A stretch of 37,045 bases of DNA, taken from Solidesulfovibrio fructosivorans JJ]. Its GTDB lineage: Bacteria > Desulfobacterota > Desulfovibrionia > Desulfovibrionales > Desulfovibrionaceae. This document shows positions 15,294-30,554 of the stretch, piece by piece. The notes under the pieces are model-generated. The model was not told the origin of the DNA, made no database searches, and was given only the letters and a program-made list of their open reading frames with translations. Numbering within the stretch: position 1 is the first letter of the stretch; each line of letters opens with the position of its first letter. The position numbers and the translations under genes were made by a program. The stretch spans positions 1 to 37,045 of the forward strand of contig NZ_AECZ01000039.1 in NCBI RefSeq assembly GCF_000179555.1, given 5' to 3'.

Positions 15294-15863
15294 ATGGAGG
15301 AGAAAAGATCGAATTCGGCCGGCGGCGTTGGCGGCATGGTGCTTTGTGCCCTGATCGGCTTCGTCGGCGCCCTTGTGGTAGGGTGGGTCATCTTTCCGAA
15401 ACTGCTTTACAGTGAAAAGACACAACCCATTCGTTTCAGTCACACGGTCCATGCGCAGCTGGGCATAGAGTGCGAGCAGTGCCACCATCTCGGCCCCGAC
15501 GGCCGGTTTGCCGGCCTGCCCACGACCGAGTCCTGCGCCGAGTGCCATGGCGACGAAACCGGGGACAAATCGCCTAACGGCAAGGAAATCGACAAGTTCG
15601 TCAAGGACTACGTCAAGACCGGCGCCCAGGTCCCCTGGCTCGTCTACCAGTATCAGCCCGACAACGTGTTCTTCTCCCATGCCGCCCACAAGGGGTTCGA
15701 GTGCACCAAGTGCCATCCCGATGTGGCCAAGATGGACAATCCTCCGGCGTACTACGAGAACCGGCTCAGCGGCTACAGCAAAGACACGATGAAGATGTGG
15801 CAGTGCGAACGTTGTCATGCCTCCATGGGCACGAGCAACGCCTGCTACGTCTGTCATAAATAA
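15294..15863 (+). CDS. qrcA: Qrc complex multihaem cytochrome c subunit
   Basis: This 189-residue subunit takes electrons from periplasmic type I cytochrome c3 and passes them into the quinone reductase complex. One N-terminal transmembrane segment (about 12-34) anchors it, with the haem domain in the periplasm. Five CXXCH haem motifs are visible: CEQCH, CAECH, CTKCH, CERCH and CYVCH. The ATG at 15294 was chosen because it follows AGGGGA and sits just before the membrane anchor; the frame is open upstream. It is the first of four closely spaced genes. I recall six haems c being reported for the D. vulgaris complex, so a missing or non-standard site here deserves a check. Confidence 0.92.
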   Translation: MEEKRSNSAGGVGGMVLCALIGFVGALVVGWVIFPKLLYSEKTQPIRFSHTVHAQLGIECEQCHHLGPDGRFAGLPTTESCAECHGDETGDKSPNGKEIDKFVKDYVKTGAQVPWLVYQYQPDNVFFSHAAHKGFECTKCHPDVAKMDNPPAYYENRLSGYSKDTMKMWQCERCHASMGTSNACYVCHK

Positions 15864-24552: not shown

Positions 24553-24603
24553 GCGGGGGCGATGTCGTCCGGGACCGCTCGGCCCGCATTCCCCCGCTTG
24601 TTT
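24553..24603 (+). terminator. Possible icd terminator
   Basis: GCGGGGG (24553-24559) pairs with CCCCCGC (24591-24597), followed by TTGTTTT. The loop is long and holds a smaller CGGG/CCCG hairpin. It lies 18 bases after icd. Confidence 0.35.
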
Positions 24604-24726
24604 TCCGCCGCCTGGATGTCTCCGCGCGCGTTGGCGGAACGGACTGCCGCGCCGGACGACGTGACGTTGTACCCGCTTGGAAACAAGATGACACCCGCTT
24701 CGTGGCGAAGGGGAAAAGGGGGCGAA

Positions 24727-26706
24727 ATGGCCGTTGTCGGCGTGGATACCGGTGGCACGTTCACGGACGTTATCTGTTGGCGCGATGGGGCGTTTGCGGT
24801 GGTCAAGCTGCCTTCGACCCCGGACAATCCCGCCCGCGCCGTGCTTGCGGGGCTTGAGCGGTTGGGTTTCGCCGGGGGCCGCGTGCTGCACGGTTCGACC
24901 GTGGCCACCAATGCGATTTTGGAACGCAAGGGCGCGCCCACGGCTTTCATCGCCAACGCGGGCTTTGAGGACATCATCGCCATCGGCCGCCAGAACCGGC
25001 CCGAGCTTTACGACCTGGCCAGCCGCAAGGAACCCTGCCTCGTGCCCGGGGAACTGCGCTTCGGCGCGCCGGGACGCGTTTCGGCCGAGGGCAAGGTGCT
25101 CGAGGAGCTGACTCCCGAGCGGGCGTCCGAACTGGCCCGGGCCGTGGCCGATGCCGGCGCCACCTCGGCCGCCATATGTCTGCTTTTCTCCTTTCTCAAG
25201 CCCGAGCACGAACGCCTCCTTGGCGAGGCGCTGGCCGCATGCGGCCTGTCCGTCTCCCTTTCCAGCGACATCCTGGCCGAATTTCGGGAATACGAGCGCG
25301 CGGCCACCACGGTGGCCAATGCCTACGTGGCCCCGGTCATGGACGCCTATATCGGCGACCTGGAAGCCGGGCTGGGCCGGGAAGCGGCGCTTTCGGTCAT
25401 GCAGTCGAGCGGCGGGCTCATCACCGCCCAAACGGCCCGCCACGAGCCGGTGCGCACGATCCTTTCCGGCCCGGCCGGCGGGGTCGTTGCCGCCTTGGCC
25501 GTGGGCAAGGCCGCCGGTTTCGACAGCCTCATCACCTTCGACATGGGCGGCACCTCCACCGACGTTTCGCTTCTCGACGGCGGTCTGTCCGTGGCCATGG
25601 AAACGCGCCTTGCCGGCCTGCCGATCAAGACGCCCATGATCGACATCCACACCGTGGGCGCGGGCGGCGGCTCGTTGGCCGCCCTCGACGTCGGCGGGGC
25701 GCTGACCGTCGGGCCTCAAAGCGCCGGGGCCGATCCCGGGCCGGCCTGCTACGGCAGGGGCGAGGGGCTGACCGTCACCGACGCCAACCTTTTTCTCGGC
25801 CGGCTTGCCCCGGATCATTTCCTTGGCGGCGGAATGGCGCTTGCCTCCGATCGCCTGCCGCCGTTGTTCAAGCGCCTGGGCGCGGCGGCCGGCCTGACGC
25901 CGGTCGAAGCGGCCGAGGGCATCGTGGCCGTGGCCGAGGCGGCCATGGAGCGGGCCATCCGGGTCATCTCCGTGGAGCGCGGCCATGATCCGGCGGATTT
26001 CGCGCTGCTTTCCTACGGCGGCGCGGGCGGGCTCCACGCCGTGTCCCTGGCCCGGCTGCTCGGCGTCCAAACGGTTGTCGTGCCGCGCCATCCGGGTCTC
26101 TTTTCTGCCCTTGGCATGCTTCACGCCGATATCGTCAAGGATTTTTCCGAAACCGTCATGCTGTCTTCGGACAAGATCGACGTGTTCGAGCTGGCCGGGC
26201 TTTTCGGCTCCCTGGAGGAAAAAGCCCGCCAGGGCATGGCGGCCGAAGGTCTGGACGGCGGCGACATCGTGCTCGAGCGCCAGCTCGACATGCGCTACAA
26301 AGGCCAGTCCCACGAATTGCCCATTCGTTTCGTGGCCGACCCCTTCACCGCCTTTCACAACCGCCACGAGGACATTTTCGGCTTCAAGGACCGCAAGGCC
26401 GTCATCGAAGTCGTCACGCTTCGCATCCGGGCGCGCGCCGTTCAGGAGAAGCCGCCGTTCAAGGAGGCCGATCACCTTGTCGCGGCGGTGTCCGAGGAGG
26501 CCAAGCTCGGCGAACGCCCCCTCGTTTGGCGCACCCGCGAGATCGCGGCCCAGTGGTACGACCGGGAAAAGCTCGCCCCCGGCAACCGCATCCTCGGTCC
26601 GGCGCTCATCGCCGAAATTTCGGCCACCACCTTCGTTCCGCCCAAGGCCGAGGCACGCGTGGACGGCTTCGGCAACATCGTCATCGACACGCATGCCGAA
26701 GGATGA
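24727..26706 (+). CDS. hyuA: Hydantoinase/oxoprolinase family, subunit A (HyuA-like)
   Basis: This 659-residue protein has the HyuA plan, an ATP-binding actin-like fold that works with a HyuB subunit to open or carboxylate small ring or keto substrates (5-oxoproline, N-methylhydantoin, acetone-type). VGVDTGGTFTDV at 4-15 and FDMGGTSTDVSLL near residue 275 are the phosphate-binding loops. VGAGGGS and SYGGAGGLHA are further family motifs. The ATG at 24727 follows AAAAGGGGGCGA; the frame is open to 24562 but no homology begins there. Its normal partner hyuB lies 2.3 kb downstream, behind an inserted region. The substrate cannot be told from sequence. Confidence 0.88.
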   Translation: MAVVGVDTGGTFTDVICWRDGAFAVVKLPSTPDNPARAVLAGLERLGFAGGRVLHGSTVATNAILERKGAPTAFIANAGFEDIIAIGRQNRPELYDLASRKEPCLVPGELRFGAPGRVSAEGKVLEELTPERASELARAVADAGATSAAICLLFSFLKPEHERLLGEALAACGLSVSLSSDILAEFREYERAATTVANAYVAPVMDAYIGDLEAGLGREAALSVMQSSGGLITAQTARHEPVRTILSGPAGGVVAALAVGKAAGFDSLITFDMGGTSTDVSLLDGGLSVAMETRLAGLPIKTPMIDIHTVGAGGGSLAALDVGGALTVGPQSAGADPGPACYGRGEGLTVTDANLFLGRLAPDHFLGGGMALASDRLPPLFKRLGAAAGLTPVEAAEGIVAVAEAAMERAIRVISVERGHDPADFALLSYGGAGGLHAVSLARLLGVQTVVVPRHPGLFSALGMLHADIVKDFSETVMLSSDKIDVFELAGLFGSLEEKARQGMAAEGLDGGDIVLERQLDMRYKGQSHELPIRFVADPFTAFHNRHEDIFGFKDRKAVIEVVTLRIRARAVQEKPPFKEADHLVAAVSEEAKLGERPLVWRTREIAAQWYDREKLAPGNRILGPALIAEISATTFVPPKAEARVDGFGNIVIDTHAEG

Positions 26707-26728: not shown

Positions 26729-26793
26729 GCCTCCGGCGGCCAGGGGGAAACTTTTTGGAAAAAGTTTCCCCCTGGACCCTCTTCAAAAACTTT
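26729..26793 (+). repeat. Post-gene hairpin repeat after hyuA
   Basis: The 18 bases at 26729-26746 (GCCTCCGGCGGCCAGGGG) are identical to 36944-36961 after lon. Here they run into a perfect 17-bp stem with a GG loop (26740-26775; arm CCAGGGGGAAACTTTTT). A tail with CTTCAAAAACTTT follows, which recurs in nearly the same form after hyuB at 30611-30623. It starts 22 bases after the hyuA stop and probably terminates transcription. Confidence 0.7.
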
Positions 26794-27124
26794 CCATGGG
26801 GGGGAGGGGGGAATGGCTTTTTCGTCCCTTGACGGGGTAGGCTCTATCCCCAGGCCCTTCCAGCGTTCGGCCATGGAGTTGCGGCAGGATTGCTCCCGGG
26901 CATGGCGCGTGGTCAGGGCCATGGCTTGCTGCCGGTGATGGGGCGTTGTGACTGGGGCCGGCGGGGGCAGGGCGGACGCGAAGGCGTATTCTTCAAATAT
27001 GCGCCGCGCGCGGCTGTCCCGCCCCCGCCGGCCCGCCAAAGAAACCAGACCCGGCAGGCCGGGCAGGGTGGCGGAAAATTAGGCAACAGCGCCTTGAAAC
27101 CGGGTGGCTGACGGGGGCGTCGGG
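26794..27124. other. Gene-free stretch between hyuA and the glycosyltransferase gene
   Basis: No protein or RNA gene was recognised in these 331 bases. They are GC-rich like the surrounding genome and include G-rich tracts (26800-26812) and a possible small inverted repeat of GGCCATGG/CCATGGCC type near 26868 and 26919. A short open frame on the minus strand reads through the hairpin repeat and shows no recognisable domain. The stretch may be the remnant of a decayed gene at the edge of the inserted region. Confidence 0.35.
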
Positions 27125-27871
27125 ATGCTTGTTATCGGCACGCCATGTTATGGCGGGGTGGTCACGCTGCCCTACATGCTCTCCATGTTGGCGCTCAAGG
27201 ATGTGCTCAACGCCGCGAAGGTTCCGTTTCGCCTGCTGACGCCCGCCAACGACAGTCTCATCACCCGGGTCCGCAATTCCATCGCCAACACCTTCCTGCG
27301 CGACGAGCGGGCCACGCATCTGCTTTTCATCGACGCGGACATCGAGTTCGTTCCGGCCATGGTGCCCCGGCTGCTCGGCAGCGGCAAGGACGTGGTCTGC
27401 GGCGTCTATCCGGTCAAGGGTCTGCGTCTGGACCGCGTCATGGCGCAACCGGCGGGGGCCACGCCCCAGGCGGCCGAGGCGGCCAGCCTGGATTACGCGG
27501 TCAAGCTCAAGCCCGGCTGCCACATGGACGCCCAGGGATTTCTGGAAGTGGAGTACGCGGCCACGGGGTTCATGATGGTGAGCCGCCGGGCGCTGACGCG
27601 CCTGATGGACGCCTATCCGGACTTGCGCTATCGCTATAGTTGCACCAATGAGGAGCCGGCGGACAATTTCGCCTTTTTCGATACGGCCATTGATCCGCAA
27701 ACGCGCGACTATCTGCCCGAGGATTATGCCTTTTGCAAACGCTGGCGCGACATCGGCGGACAGGTGTTCGTCAGCGTGCCCGGCCGCTTCGCCCACCATG
27801 GCGGTAAGGCGTATATTGGAGATTTTGCAATGTATTTGCGAGATGTTACGAAGAAACATACGCATAAATAA
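27125..27871 (+). CDS. Glycosyltransferase-like protein (GT-A fold)
   Basis: This 248-residue soluble protein looks like a small family 2/Anp1-like glycosyltransferase. The N-terminus VIGTPCYGG begins a Rossmann-like half, and FIDADIEF (D70, D72) is the DxD metal/nucleotide-sugar motif. RVRNSIANTFL and GVYPVK are typical of a poorly described group also met in phages and islands. The ATG at 27125 was chosen; a GTG at 27104 would add seven residues. Most of the gene is GC-rich, but the last 20 or so codons (from about 27808) are AT-rich and lead into the low-GC gene that follows. There is no signal peptide. The acceptor is unknown. Confidence 0.72.
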   Translation: MLVIGTPCYGGVVTLPYMLSMLALKDVLNAAKVPFRLLTPANDSLITRVRNSIANTFLRDERATHLLFIDADIEFVPAMVPRLLGSGKDVVCGVYPVKGLRLDRVMAQPAGATPQAAEAASLDYAVKLKPGCHMDAQGFLEVEYAATGFMMVSRRALTRLMDAYPDLRYRYSCTNEEPADNFAFFDTAIDPQTRDYLPEDYAFCKRWRDIGGQVFVSVPGRFAHHGGKAYIGDFAMYLRDVTKKHTHK

Positions 27872-27893
27872 TTGTTTATTAGGTGAGGATACT

Positions 27894-28931
27894 GTGGATA
27901 CTGCGATTCTACTTTCTGTTGTTAAAGTATTGCAAAATGACTATGTAACATTTGATATCGGAGGTAGGCTTAATGCTTTAATTGAAATGCTTAGTGAATT
28001 TGAGCGTAATTCAGCAACCGTCGATAATAGTAAGTTTGAAGAATCGACTACAAACTTATTGGAAGCGCTTGATGATTTAAAATTGAACAAGCCATGCCTT
28101 TATCAGGAAGTTGTTCTGAATGAAATAAAAGCTTTTGAGTGGCTTGGTGATGAATTAAAAGAGAAAATAAAATCTATCATTAAAAATTATGCAAACAACA
28201 GAAAATTAATGATACAAGTGTTGTTGGATTTGAAAGCCAAATTCAACATGTATTTGGCTTCTCTTAACTCTTTGATCAGTGGATTTGCAAGGGTTGGCAT
28301 TGAGGAGTATGTCCTCTTAGACAATGATGCAAAGATAGTCGTTGTATTTCAGGAAGATATATCGCATTTTTCGCTTGATGCTTTAGAAAAGGAATTTCGT
28401 GAACTAAAGAAGACTCTTAACTTTATGTCTGAAATAGTTGGAGATCAAAAAAAAGCTTTTACAGTGTCTTCGATTGGGTCAACTGATTTTACACTTATTA
28501 TTGATTCTGGATTTAAGACGGCAGCGTTTTTTGCTGCTACAGTAACTTTTTGTTTAAAGATATATAAAGATTACTTGGATATTTTGTTGAAAAGAAAAGA
28601 GTTGAAAAAGATGGATTTTCCTGTCGAAGTTATTGAAAAAATAGTATCGGTTAGTGAAGAGATGAAAAATAAAAGAAAAAATGATTTTGTTGAAAATATT
28701 ATTGCAAAGTATCTGGATAATAATTCTGGTATTGATAGCGGGAGAAAGAGTGAGTTGGTGAATGCAGTTGCTGGTGTTTTGGATGATGTATCTAAAAAAA
28801 TTGAATCCGGAGTTAGTTTTGATGTAGTGAGTCGTGCTGCTGAGGATGGTATCAAGGGGGCTGGGGATGGAAGTGCTTCGTTTGATGATGCTGTGGCTGC
28901 TTTAAAATCTGCTCAAAATGAAATAAAATAA
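27894..28931 (+). CDS. Low-GC gene of unknown function
   Basis: I do not recognise this 345-residue protein. Two rows counted gave 38% and 27% GC, against a strongly GC-rich background, and Lys/Asn/Ile codons ending in A or T dominate. It begins with a GTG at 27894 behind AGGTGAGG, 22 bases after the glycosyltransferase gene. Residues 1-140 are predicted helical. Residues 145-235 combine a strand (AKIVVVFQ), a charged helix, a second strand pair (FTVSSIGSTDFTLII) and a hydrophobic helix (about 208-225) that could span or lie on the membrane. Residues 240-345 are helical and charged. Similar strand-plus-hydrophobic-helix blocks occur in uncharacterised accessory proteins, a comparison from memory only. 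It sits between hyuA and hyuB and looks horizontally acquired. Confidence 0.8.
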   Translation: MDTAILLSVVKVLQNDYVTFDIGGRLNALIEMLSEFERNSATVDNSKFEESTTNLLEALDDLKLNKPCLYQEVVLNEIKAFEWLGDELKEKIKSIIKNYANNRKLMIQVLLDLKAKFNMYLASLNSLISGFARVGIEEYVLLDNDAKIVVVFQEDISHFSLDALEKEFRELKKTLNFMSEIVGDQKKAFTVSSIGSTDFTLIIDSGFKTAAFFAATVTFCLKIYKDYLDILLKRKELKKMDFPVEVIEKIVSVSEEMKNKRKNDFVENIIAKYLDNNSGIDSGRKSELVNAVAGVLDDVSKKIESGVSFDVVSRAAEDGIKGAGDGSASFDDAVAALKSAQNEIK

Positions 28932-28938
28932 CTTAAAC

Positions 28939-28966
28939 TTGATAAGAATATTCTTTTGGCAATAAG
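28939..28966 (+). promoter_or_regulatory. Possible hyuB promoter in the AT-rich leader
   Basis: TTGATA at 28939-28944 and AATAAG at 28961-28966 are 16 bases apart, ahead of the hyuB ATG at 28989. AAGAATATTCTT, a 12-bp palindrome at 28944-28955, lies between them and could bind a regulator. The foreign DNA may thus have given hyuB its own promoter. Confidence 0.35.
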
Positions 28967-28988
28967 CGAATCTAAATAAAGGTTGATC

Positions 28989-30554
28989 ATGAACATCACT
29001 CCGATTACCCTGGAAGTCTTCAAGAACAAGTTCGCTTCGGTGGCCGAGGAAATGGGCATGGCGCTGACCCGCGCCGCCTTTTCCCCGAACATCAAGGAAC
29101 GTCGCGACTTCTCCTGCGCCGTGTTCGACGCCAAGGGCGACATGGTGGCCCAGGCCGCCCATATTCCCGTTCATCTCGGCTCCATGCCGCTTTCCGTGGC
29201 CTCCATCATCGAAGCGCTGGAACTGGCCCCGGGCGAAATGGCCATGCTCAACGATCCGTTTCGGGGCGGCACCCACCTGCCCGACATCACGCTTGTCGCC
29301 CCGGTCTACGCCGGCACCGACGCCCCGGTCTTCTACGTCGCCAACCGCGCCCACCACGCCGACGTCGGCGGCATGGCCCCCGGCTCCATGCCCCTTTCCA
29401 CCTCCATATTCCAGGAAGGCCTCGTCATACCGCCGGTGAAAATCGTCGTGGGCGGCGAAATCGTCCCGGACGTCATGAACCTCTTCCTGGCCAACGTGCG
29501 CACCCCGGCCGAGCGGCAGGGAGATTTCGCCGCCCAGATCATGGCCAACCGCACCGGCGTCGCCCGCATGGAAGCCCTGGTCAAGGCCCACAGCCTGGAG
29601 ACCGTGACCGCCATGGCCGAGGCGCTCATGGACTACGCCGAGCGGCTCATGATCGCGACCATCGCCGCCATGCCCGACGGCTCCTACGAAGCCGAGGACA
29701 GCCTGGACGACGACGGTGTCGGCGGCCAGGACGTCGCCGTGCGCCTGACGCTTTCCATCGGCGGCGAGGAGGCGGAACTCGATTTCACGGACAGCGATCC
29801 CCAAACGGCGGGCTGCGTCAACGCGGTGGGCGCCATCGCCGTCTCGGCCGCGCTCTACGTGTTCCGCTGCCTGGCCGGCGGCAACGCCCCGACCAACGCC
29901 GGCTGCCTGCGCCCCATCATCGTGCGCACGGCAGCCGGCACCTTGGTCGATGCCCGCTTTCCGGCGGCCGTGGCCGGCGGCAACGTCGAAACCTCCCAGC
30001 GCATTGTGGACGTGATCCTGGCCGCTCTGGCCAAGGCGCTGCCCGGGCGCATTCCCGCCGCCTCGCAAGGCACCATGAACAACGTGGCCATGGGCGGCTT
30101 CGACCCGCGCGTCAAAAAATCTTTCACCTACTACGAGACCCTTGCCGGCGGGGCCGGGGCCGATGCGAAGGGCCCGGGACAGTCTGCCGTGCACTCCCAC
30201 ATGACCAATACCCTCAATACGCCCGTCGAGGCGCTGGAATATGCCTACCCGCTGCGCGTCACGCGCTATGCGATCCGCCAGGGTTCCGGCGGTCCGGGCC
30301 AACATCCCGGCGGCGACGGGCTGGTGCGCGAGATCGAAGCCCTCGCCCCCATGGAGGTGACCGTGCTCTCCGACCGGCGTTTTCGCGGCCCCTGGGGCCT
30401 GGACGGGGGCGGGGAGGGCGCTTCCGGCGTCAATACCGTGACGCGGCGAAACGGCGAGATGGTCATGCCCGGCAAGTTTCACGTGCGCCTGCGCAAAGGC
30501 GACCGGCTGCGCATCGAAACCCCCGGCGGCGGGGGCTACGGCGTGATGGGGTAG
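28989..30554 (+). CDS. hyuB: Hydantoinase/oxoprolinase family, subunit B (HyuB-like)
   Basis: This 521-residue protein is the usual partner of HyuA and should form the catalytic core of the amidohydrolase or carboxylase. Family motifs include RRDFSCAVFDAKGDMV (about 38-53), the probable metal-binding HIPVHLGSM and RAHHADVGG, and the C-terminal TPGGGGYG. Composition returns to the GC-rich type exactly at the ATG, while the 57 bases before it are AT-rich. The ribosome-binding site (AAAGG) is weak. hyuA lies 2.3 kb upstream rather than adjacent, which is unusual. The reading frame is intact, so function is probably kept. Confidence 0.88.
   Translation: MNITPITLEVFKNKFASVAEEMGMALTRAAFSPNIKERRDFSCAVFDAKGDMVAQAAHIPVHLGSMPLSVASIIEALELAPGEMAMLNDPFRGGTHLPDITLVAPVYAGTDAPVFYVANRAHHADVGGMAPGSMPLSTSIFQEGLVIPPVKIVVGGEIVPDVMNLFLANVRTPAERQGDFAAQIMANRTGVARMEALVKAHSLETVTAMAEALMDYAERLMIATIAAMPDGSYEAEDSLDDDGVGGQDVAVRLTLSIGGEEAELDFTDSDPQTAGCVNAVGAIAVSAALYVFRCLAGGNAPTNAGCLRPIIVRTAAGTLVDARFPAAVAGGNVETSQRIVDVILAALAKALPGRIPAASQGTMNNVAMGGFDPRVKKSFTYYETLAGGAGADAKGPGQSAVHSHMTNTLNTPVEALEYAYPLRVTRYAIRQGSGGPGQHPGGDGLVREIEALAPMEVTVLSDRRFRGPWGLDGGGEGASGVNTVTRRNGEMVMPGKFHVRLRKGDRLRIETPGGGGYGVMG

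Follow-up and report, generated by a model that had tools for sequence, protein, structure and literature searches.

Chromosomal hotspots, where accessory genes change between conserved core genes, can lack recognisable mobile elements, and in the account by Oliveira et al. (2017, PMC5635113) such hotspots go together with frequent recombination in the flanking core genes. For the hotspots of P. aeruginosa, it has been proposed that homologous recombination can carry over entire core-flanked regions (PMC10250203). Bacterial TRADD-N modules are described as adaptor modules of predicted conflict systems, with an RRM-like fold in which the turn from strand 2 to strand 3 holds a tiny residue and a serine (PMC8195603).

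We analysed a stretch of 37,045 nucleotides, here called the window, from Solidesulfovibrio fructosivorans JJ (contig NZ_AECZ01000039.1; the genome, G000, has 4.67 Mb in 75 contigs), in which an AT-rich gene, P0001, stands between a GT-like gene and hyuB. A search of the open-access literature found no paper on this genus or locus. Our main reading, to which we give a probability of about 0.5, is that the segment is an acquired single-gene islet in a recurrent GT-hyuB cargo spot, and that it probably acts against phages or competing elements.

The AT-rich segment and its gene

The genes are ordered hyuA, GT-like gene, P0001 and hyuB, with the following features in the window:

24562 to 26706, forward strand: hyuA (hydantoinase/oxoprolinase A), the left flank; PF01968, 323 bits.
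27104 to 27871, forward strand: GT-like gene, 255 aa; phrog_1574, E 4.8e-28.
27829 to 28987, no strand assigned: foreign AT-rich islet, with edges set by eye against G004, the closest relative.
27881 to 27888, forward strand: likely ribosome-binding site of P0001, AGGTGAGG, 5 nt before the GTG, by direct reading.
27894 to 28931, forward strand: P0001, 345 aa, GTG start, of a family without description in the searched libraries; relative P0003 in G704, E 3.6e-24.
28311 to 28613, forward strand: central alpha/beta module of P0001 (strand-helix-strand-IGS-strand) and hydrophobic/coiled helix, as predicted in low-confidence models; the IGS is common to P0003.
28978 to 28982, forward strand: likely ribosome-binding site of hyuB, AAAGG, by direct reading, within the foreign DNA.
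28989 to 30554, forward strand: hyuB (hydantoinase B/oxoprolinase), the right flank; PF02538, 683 bits.

The Pfam matches uphold the identities of HyuA and HyuB given in the earlier note on this DNA, and the drop in composition that it had seen is real. The stretch 27808-28988 has 33.2% GC and the part absent from the closest relative (27829-28987, 1159 bp) 33.0%, against a mean of 65.4% (sd 3.4, minimum 55.7%) in stretches of this length from the rest of the window; GC by codon position is 45/28/27, versus 69/49/87 in hyuB. Where the 1159 bp stand, G004 holds 54 bp, and common to both, as read by eye, are TTGGAGATTTTGC up to 27828 and CATGAA from 28988. The same note had placed the segment between hyuA and hyuB, and it does reach the start of hyuB as AT-rich DNA, but the 255-aa GT-like gene intervenes after hyuA. 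The fall in GC occurs inside the last GT-like codons, and the last ten residues of the window's GT-like protein are encoded by foreign DNA.

The segment was also said to carry one intact gene of 345 codons, and this is borne out by a longest stop-free run of 366 codons, much longer than expected by chance, since 1000 first-order Markov resamplings of the segment gave at most 186. The frame is open further upstream, with an ATG at 27648, and the GTG at 27894 is taken as the start because of its ribosome-binding site. P0001 begins 22 bp past the stop codon of the GT-like gene and ends 57 bp before hyuB, and, judged from the sequence, it is probably co-transcribed with both.

We found no recombinase, terminal repeats or target-site duplication in the segment, which holds one gene only, and there is no tRNA gene in the window. 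The longest word common to the two edges is of chance length, as 136 of 300 resamplings reach it. A 7-base TAAATAA had been reported at both ends without a clear target duplication; it is there, at 27865 and 28973, but a third copy lies at 15857. As a target-site duplication it is ruled out, because G004 lacks it at the empty site and the edge words are at chance length.

The GT-hyuB spot and its occupants

HyuB is present in all 14 genomes of the genus, and 13 of them, the window's included, can be scored for the spot, since the contig of G002 ends inside hyuB. The GT-like gene precedes hyuB in all 12 other scorable genomes and is itself preceded by hyuA in 11 of these; in the remaining metagenome assembly, G010, hyuA is on another contig, which ends with a partial second GT. 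The two GT copies of G010 are about 87% alike and lie on two contigs (L079, L087), one of which ends inside the gene, and they may reflect duplication or mixed strains.

A comparison of the locus in relatives shows both empty sites and other cargo. The spot is empty in 8 of the 13 genomes, where hyuB starts 23-47 bp past the GT match; G004, whose HyuB is 95% identical to that of the window, is one of these genomes. It is filled in five: the window, G010 (1660 bp), G011 (744), G003 (710) and G006 (698), and the cargo of the four relatives is AT-rich as well (30-37% GC). Each GT protein of the filled genomes has its own short C-terminal tail, and the foreign DNA reaches the start of hyuB. Three cargo families occupy the spot, namely P0001 (one genome), an ORC-CDC6-like ATPase (one) and a divergent membrane/coiled-coil family (three). 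The same flanks hold differing accessory genes, which is what characterises a core-gene hotspot. On the HyuB tree the pattern needs at least three gains or losses on well-supported branches, and most simply four, and the filled state is not clustered (315 of 500 label shuffles score as low).

The cargo of G010 is a 534-aa protein of PF24389 (45.5 bits, cut-off 27), with 34% identity over 96% of its length to Burkholderia plasmid proteins. Its relatives are found on 23 plasmid records (22 Burkholderia, 1 Acetobacter), of which 21 are typed conjugative; there was no phage match, and the gene is absent from the window's genome. In the one plasmid record examined, its neighbours encode hypothetical proteins and transposases, and none is a named defence gene.

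The proteins of G011, G003 and G006 are hydrophobic in stretches near either end and charged in between. Each of the first two shares 23-26% identity with that of G006 (E 6e-14 and 1e-7), and the direct match between G003 and G011 is weak (E 0.04). The frame in G006 (L023:5597-6169) is open only downstream of nine consecutive T, so this cargo may be frame-broken; the start may come from a sequencing error, a frameshift or switching. At E 0.01 the family matches in 8 of 247 genomes, which are these three, G335 (3e-17), G018 (1e-11) and three weak ones. In G335 and G018 the member is a lone gene of 35-38% GC among GC-rich genes. These lone genes (L282:5154-5891 and L283:4515-5198) adjoin, by eye, a PEP-synthase-like and a UmuC-like gene. 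At the cargo edges of G011, G003 and G006 the shared words are likewise of chance length, and those of G010 share 9 bases, a length that 7 of 200 resamplings reach.

The GT-like gene itself belongs to phrog_1574, a family with no assigned function, and 65 phage records match its protein at less than 60% identity, one of them annotated as a putative glycosyltransferase. No Pfam family passes the cut-off, so the name glycosyltransferase rests on this one phage annotation and on a DAD motif, which we take to be of glycosyltransferase type. A gene of a phage-associated family thus sits within the hyuA-hyuB operon of the genus. Most members of the genus have a second GT copy elsewhere, about 50% identical, and neither hyuA nor hyuB was found in 14 stretches around these second copies and more distant homologues. 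We also surveyed the composition of GT loci, with 195 relatives, of which 80 were kept and 72 measured. In 4 of the 72, GC drops to 45% or lower directly behind GT while the upstream side is GC-rich, and the GT family is for this reason ruled out as a general cargo marker; three of the four are hyu loci of filled genus members, and the fourth, L103, is in another genus, where the drop stands before another gene that is FkbM-like by eye. Among the 14 stretches around GT homologues, the drop is found only in L062, from the same genome as L103. The gap between hyuA and GT holds a dispersed repeat, GTTTTTGAAGRGGGTCCAGGGGGAAACTTTTT, at 26759-26790, which has 45 copies in its own genome at up to 3 mismatches and none in a reversed control.

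Relatives and structure of P0001

We searched 348 genomes of the class for relatives of P0001, with the single protein (E 0.1) and then with a two-sequence profile. The single protein matches in 5 of the 348, its own genome included, and the only convincing other match is P0003 in G704, with 25% identity over 313 aa. The profile matches in 7 of the 348 and adds a relative in G653 (E 5e-18) and four weak ones. The G653 copy is broken by stops and a frame change; a tRNA-Ser lies 332 bp away, and no ends of an element were seen there. Not used were matches in G057 (E 2.4e-5, 21%, six internal stops, gone at E 0.1 with the two-sequence profile), G564 (E 0.008, six stops), G044 (E 0.06), and G709, G692, G712 and G706 (E 0.0012 to 0.066; among these four, the reading frames of G709 alone were inspected). 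The earlier note had held that the same gene at this place in all relatives, with drifting composition, would speak against acquisition, and P0001 is found in none of the 13 other genomes of the genus. Within the phylum, one of 395 genomes has a match by single protein and by profile, and that is the window's own. Phage records (50,697), plasmid records (72,556) and viral contigs yielded no relative, and there is none among the 52 stretches from a pattern scan of genome contigs, a scan that detects close relatives only.

An analysis of the neighbours of these homologues leads to a mobile element:

L260:2476-10291: integrative element of G704, 7.8 kb at tRNA-Asp, with integrase, resolvase, RNase H, a TM/SH3 protein and the P0001 relative.

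P0003 is its last gene. About 100 bp lie between the end of P0003 and a 46-bp sequence that repeats the tRNA-Asp end exactly; at a distance of 7.8 kb, the tRNA-Asp itself forms the second copy, and after it come a tyrosine integrase (PF00589, E 7.3e-19), RNase H and a resolvase (PF00239, E 2.3e-29). The position of P0003 inside these att repeats places the P0001 family in an integrated element. Next to P0003 is a divergent TM/SH3 protein; it was considered as a partner gene and set aside, with no relative of it in 49 genomes. Two relatives of P0001 are known, one intact within att repeats and one broken near a tRNA-Ser, and the family is thus small and otherwise found as cargo of, or as remnants beside, tRNA-integrated elements. 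The empty site in G004, the other cargo at the same place and P0003 in an element bear out the view of an acquired segment with intact cargo, and acquisition by horizontal transfer is well supported.

The protein has no convincing family in Pfam, NCBIfam, PHROG or PADLOC, and the match to a well-known housekeeping family that would have argued against an accessory role did not turn up. The best E value in NCBIfam is 0.067, and PADLOC gives no family for either P0001 or P0003. Matches to Lipase_GDSL (E 0.042), phrog_14271 (E 0.0053, 28 residues) and a colicin A sequence (E 0.08) were left unused, as below the cut-off or confined to a short helical stretch.

Structure prediction was run twice and was poor both times (pLDDT 47.7 and 47.3), and of 236 matches in a fold search none had an E value of 0.001 or below. 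Both low-confidence models have a helical N-terminus, a strand at about 147, a long helix at 161-182, a strand at about 200 and another long helix, and the second (pLDDT about 47) adds a strand at 188-194; in all, three strands and two helices are modelled. With the extra strand, the IGS conserved in P0001 and P0003 would fall in a turn between two strands. A strand block followed by a hydrophobic helix had been proposed from the sequence, and both are present, but the hydropathy peaks at only 1.30 over 19 residues, so that a membrane helix is possible but not clear. A defence or membrane function, as first suggested, is plausible, though no defence model matches and the hydrophobic helix is weak.

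Function and origin, in comparison with known systems

The flanks of the segment are 84-100% identical to those of G004; the two blocks of 120 bp that adjoin the junction have 92% and 96%. A long donor tract was not seen, the flanks being as G004-like here as elsewhere, and the arrival would be compatible with illegitimate joining as well as with a short double crossover within GT and hyuB. Single AT-rich genes have entered the same 50-bp spacer repeatedly without an integrase or target duplication, and this raises the question of how they do so.

As for its role, P0001 belongs to a family carried by mobile elements, shares its spot with an ATPase and membrane proteins, and is patchily present, and on these grounds a role against phages or other elements appears the most likely. 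The helical N-terminal part could sense a trigger or hold the protein off, and the central strand-helix-strand-IGS-strand module could serve as an adaptor between proteins. Upon a trigger P0001 would assemble, and its hydrophobic helix might then act at the membrane and stop the infected cell; every one of these steps is inferred.

The alternative that survives best, which we consider possible but rather doubtful, is that P0001 is a neutral or decaying leftover of a parent element that lost its integrase and ends, and that it has no selected role here. The family is otherwise found at the edge of tRNA elements with one copy broken, the closest relative lacks the gene with no apparent harm, and the G006 cargo is possibly frame-broken, all of which would suit such decay. 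The frame of P0001 is however intact over 345 codons behind a good ribosome-binding site, a spot of 54 bp has been refilled with other genes in four more genomes, and there is no att-like or integrase remnant beside the gene. It is unlikely that P0001 serves a phage satellite, as its toxin or as its lysogeny or superinfection-control protein, and not the defence of the host: the small integrative element that holds the intact relative does encode an integrase and a resolvase, and a divergent TM/SH3 protein adjoins the relative there, but the phage collections gave no match and P0001 is alone in the window. Such a satellite protein would overlap in function with the anti-phage or anti-element role. 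That the cargo serves the operon, for example as a membrane anchor or regulator of the GT-like protein or the hydantoinase, is improbable, since a shared orientation and close spacing across the five filled genomes, and a cargo that provides the GT C-terminus and the hyuB ribosome-binding site, are set against three unrelated families in the spot, 8 of 13 genomes without any, a membrane family that stands alone elsewhere in G335 and G018, and an element of the P0001 relative far from any hyu gene (19 kb viewed).

If the anti-phage or anti-element reading is true, conserved pairs like GT-hyuB would mark sites where uncharacterised single-gene systems can be harvested without the clutter of islands. 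In its boldest form, which we hold to be speculative, P0001 and its relative would be a new single-gene defence family with a TRADD-N-like adaptor, and the GT-hyuB spacer a core defence spot in miniature, in which AT-rich genes are exchanged singly and which has no recombinase of its own.

P0001 and its spot can be compared with several systems. Bacterial TRADD-N modules, as presented in PMC8195603, would resemble P0001, as modelled at low confidence, in a strand-helix-strand-strand module whose second strand is followed by a turn with glycine-serine, and in that the module is set in a multidomain protein. They are RRM-like with four strands and two helices, whereas P0001 has no sequence match to any such model, its fourth strand is not seen in the low-confidence models, and a profile search of PDB sequences found no TRADD; we regard the likeness as a lead and not as membership. 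The tRNA-Asp element of G704 carries the only intact relative found, as the last gene before its end repeat, and differs from the window segment in its integrase, resolvase and att repeats, of which the segment has none. The ORC-CDC6-like ATPase (PF24389) of G010 occupies the same spot but is unrelated to P0001. A further likeness is to the core-flanked chromosomal hotspots, which in the accounts cited (PMC5635113, PMC10250203) have changing accessory genes, often no recognisable mobile element and a departure in GC, although the spot here takes one gene of about 0.7-1.6 kb, is mostly empty and has no known defence system among its occupants. The protein family of its cargo is undescribed in the libraries searched, and the GT-hyuB spot itself is a small example of a known phenomenon, the core-gene hotspot.
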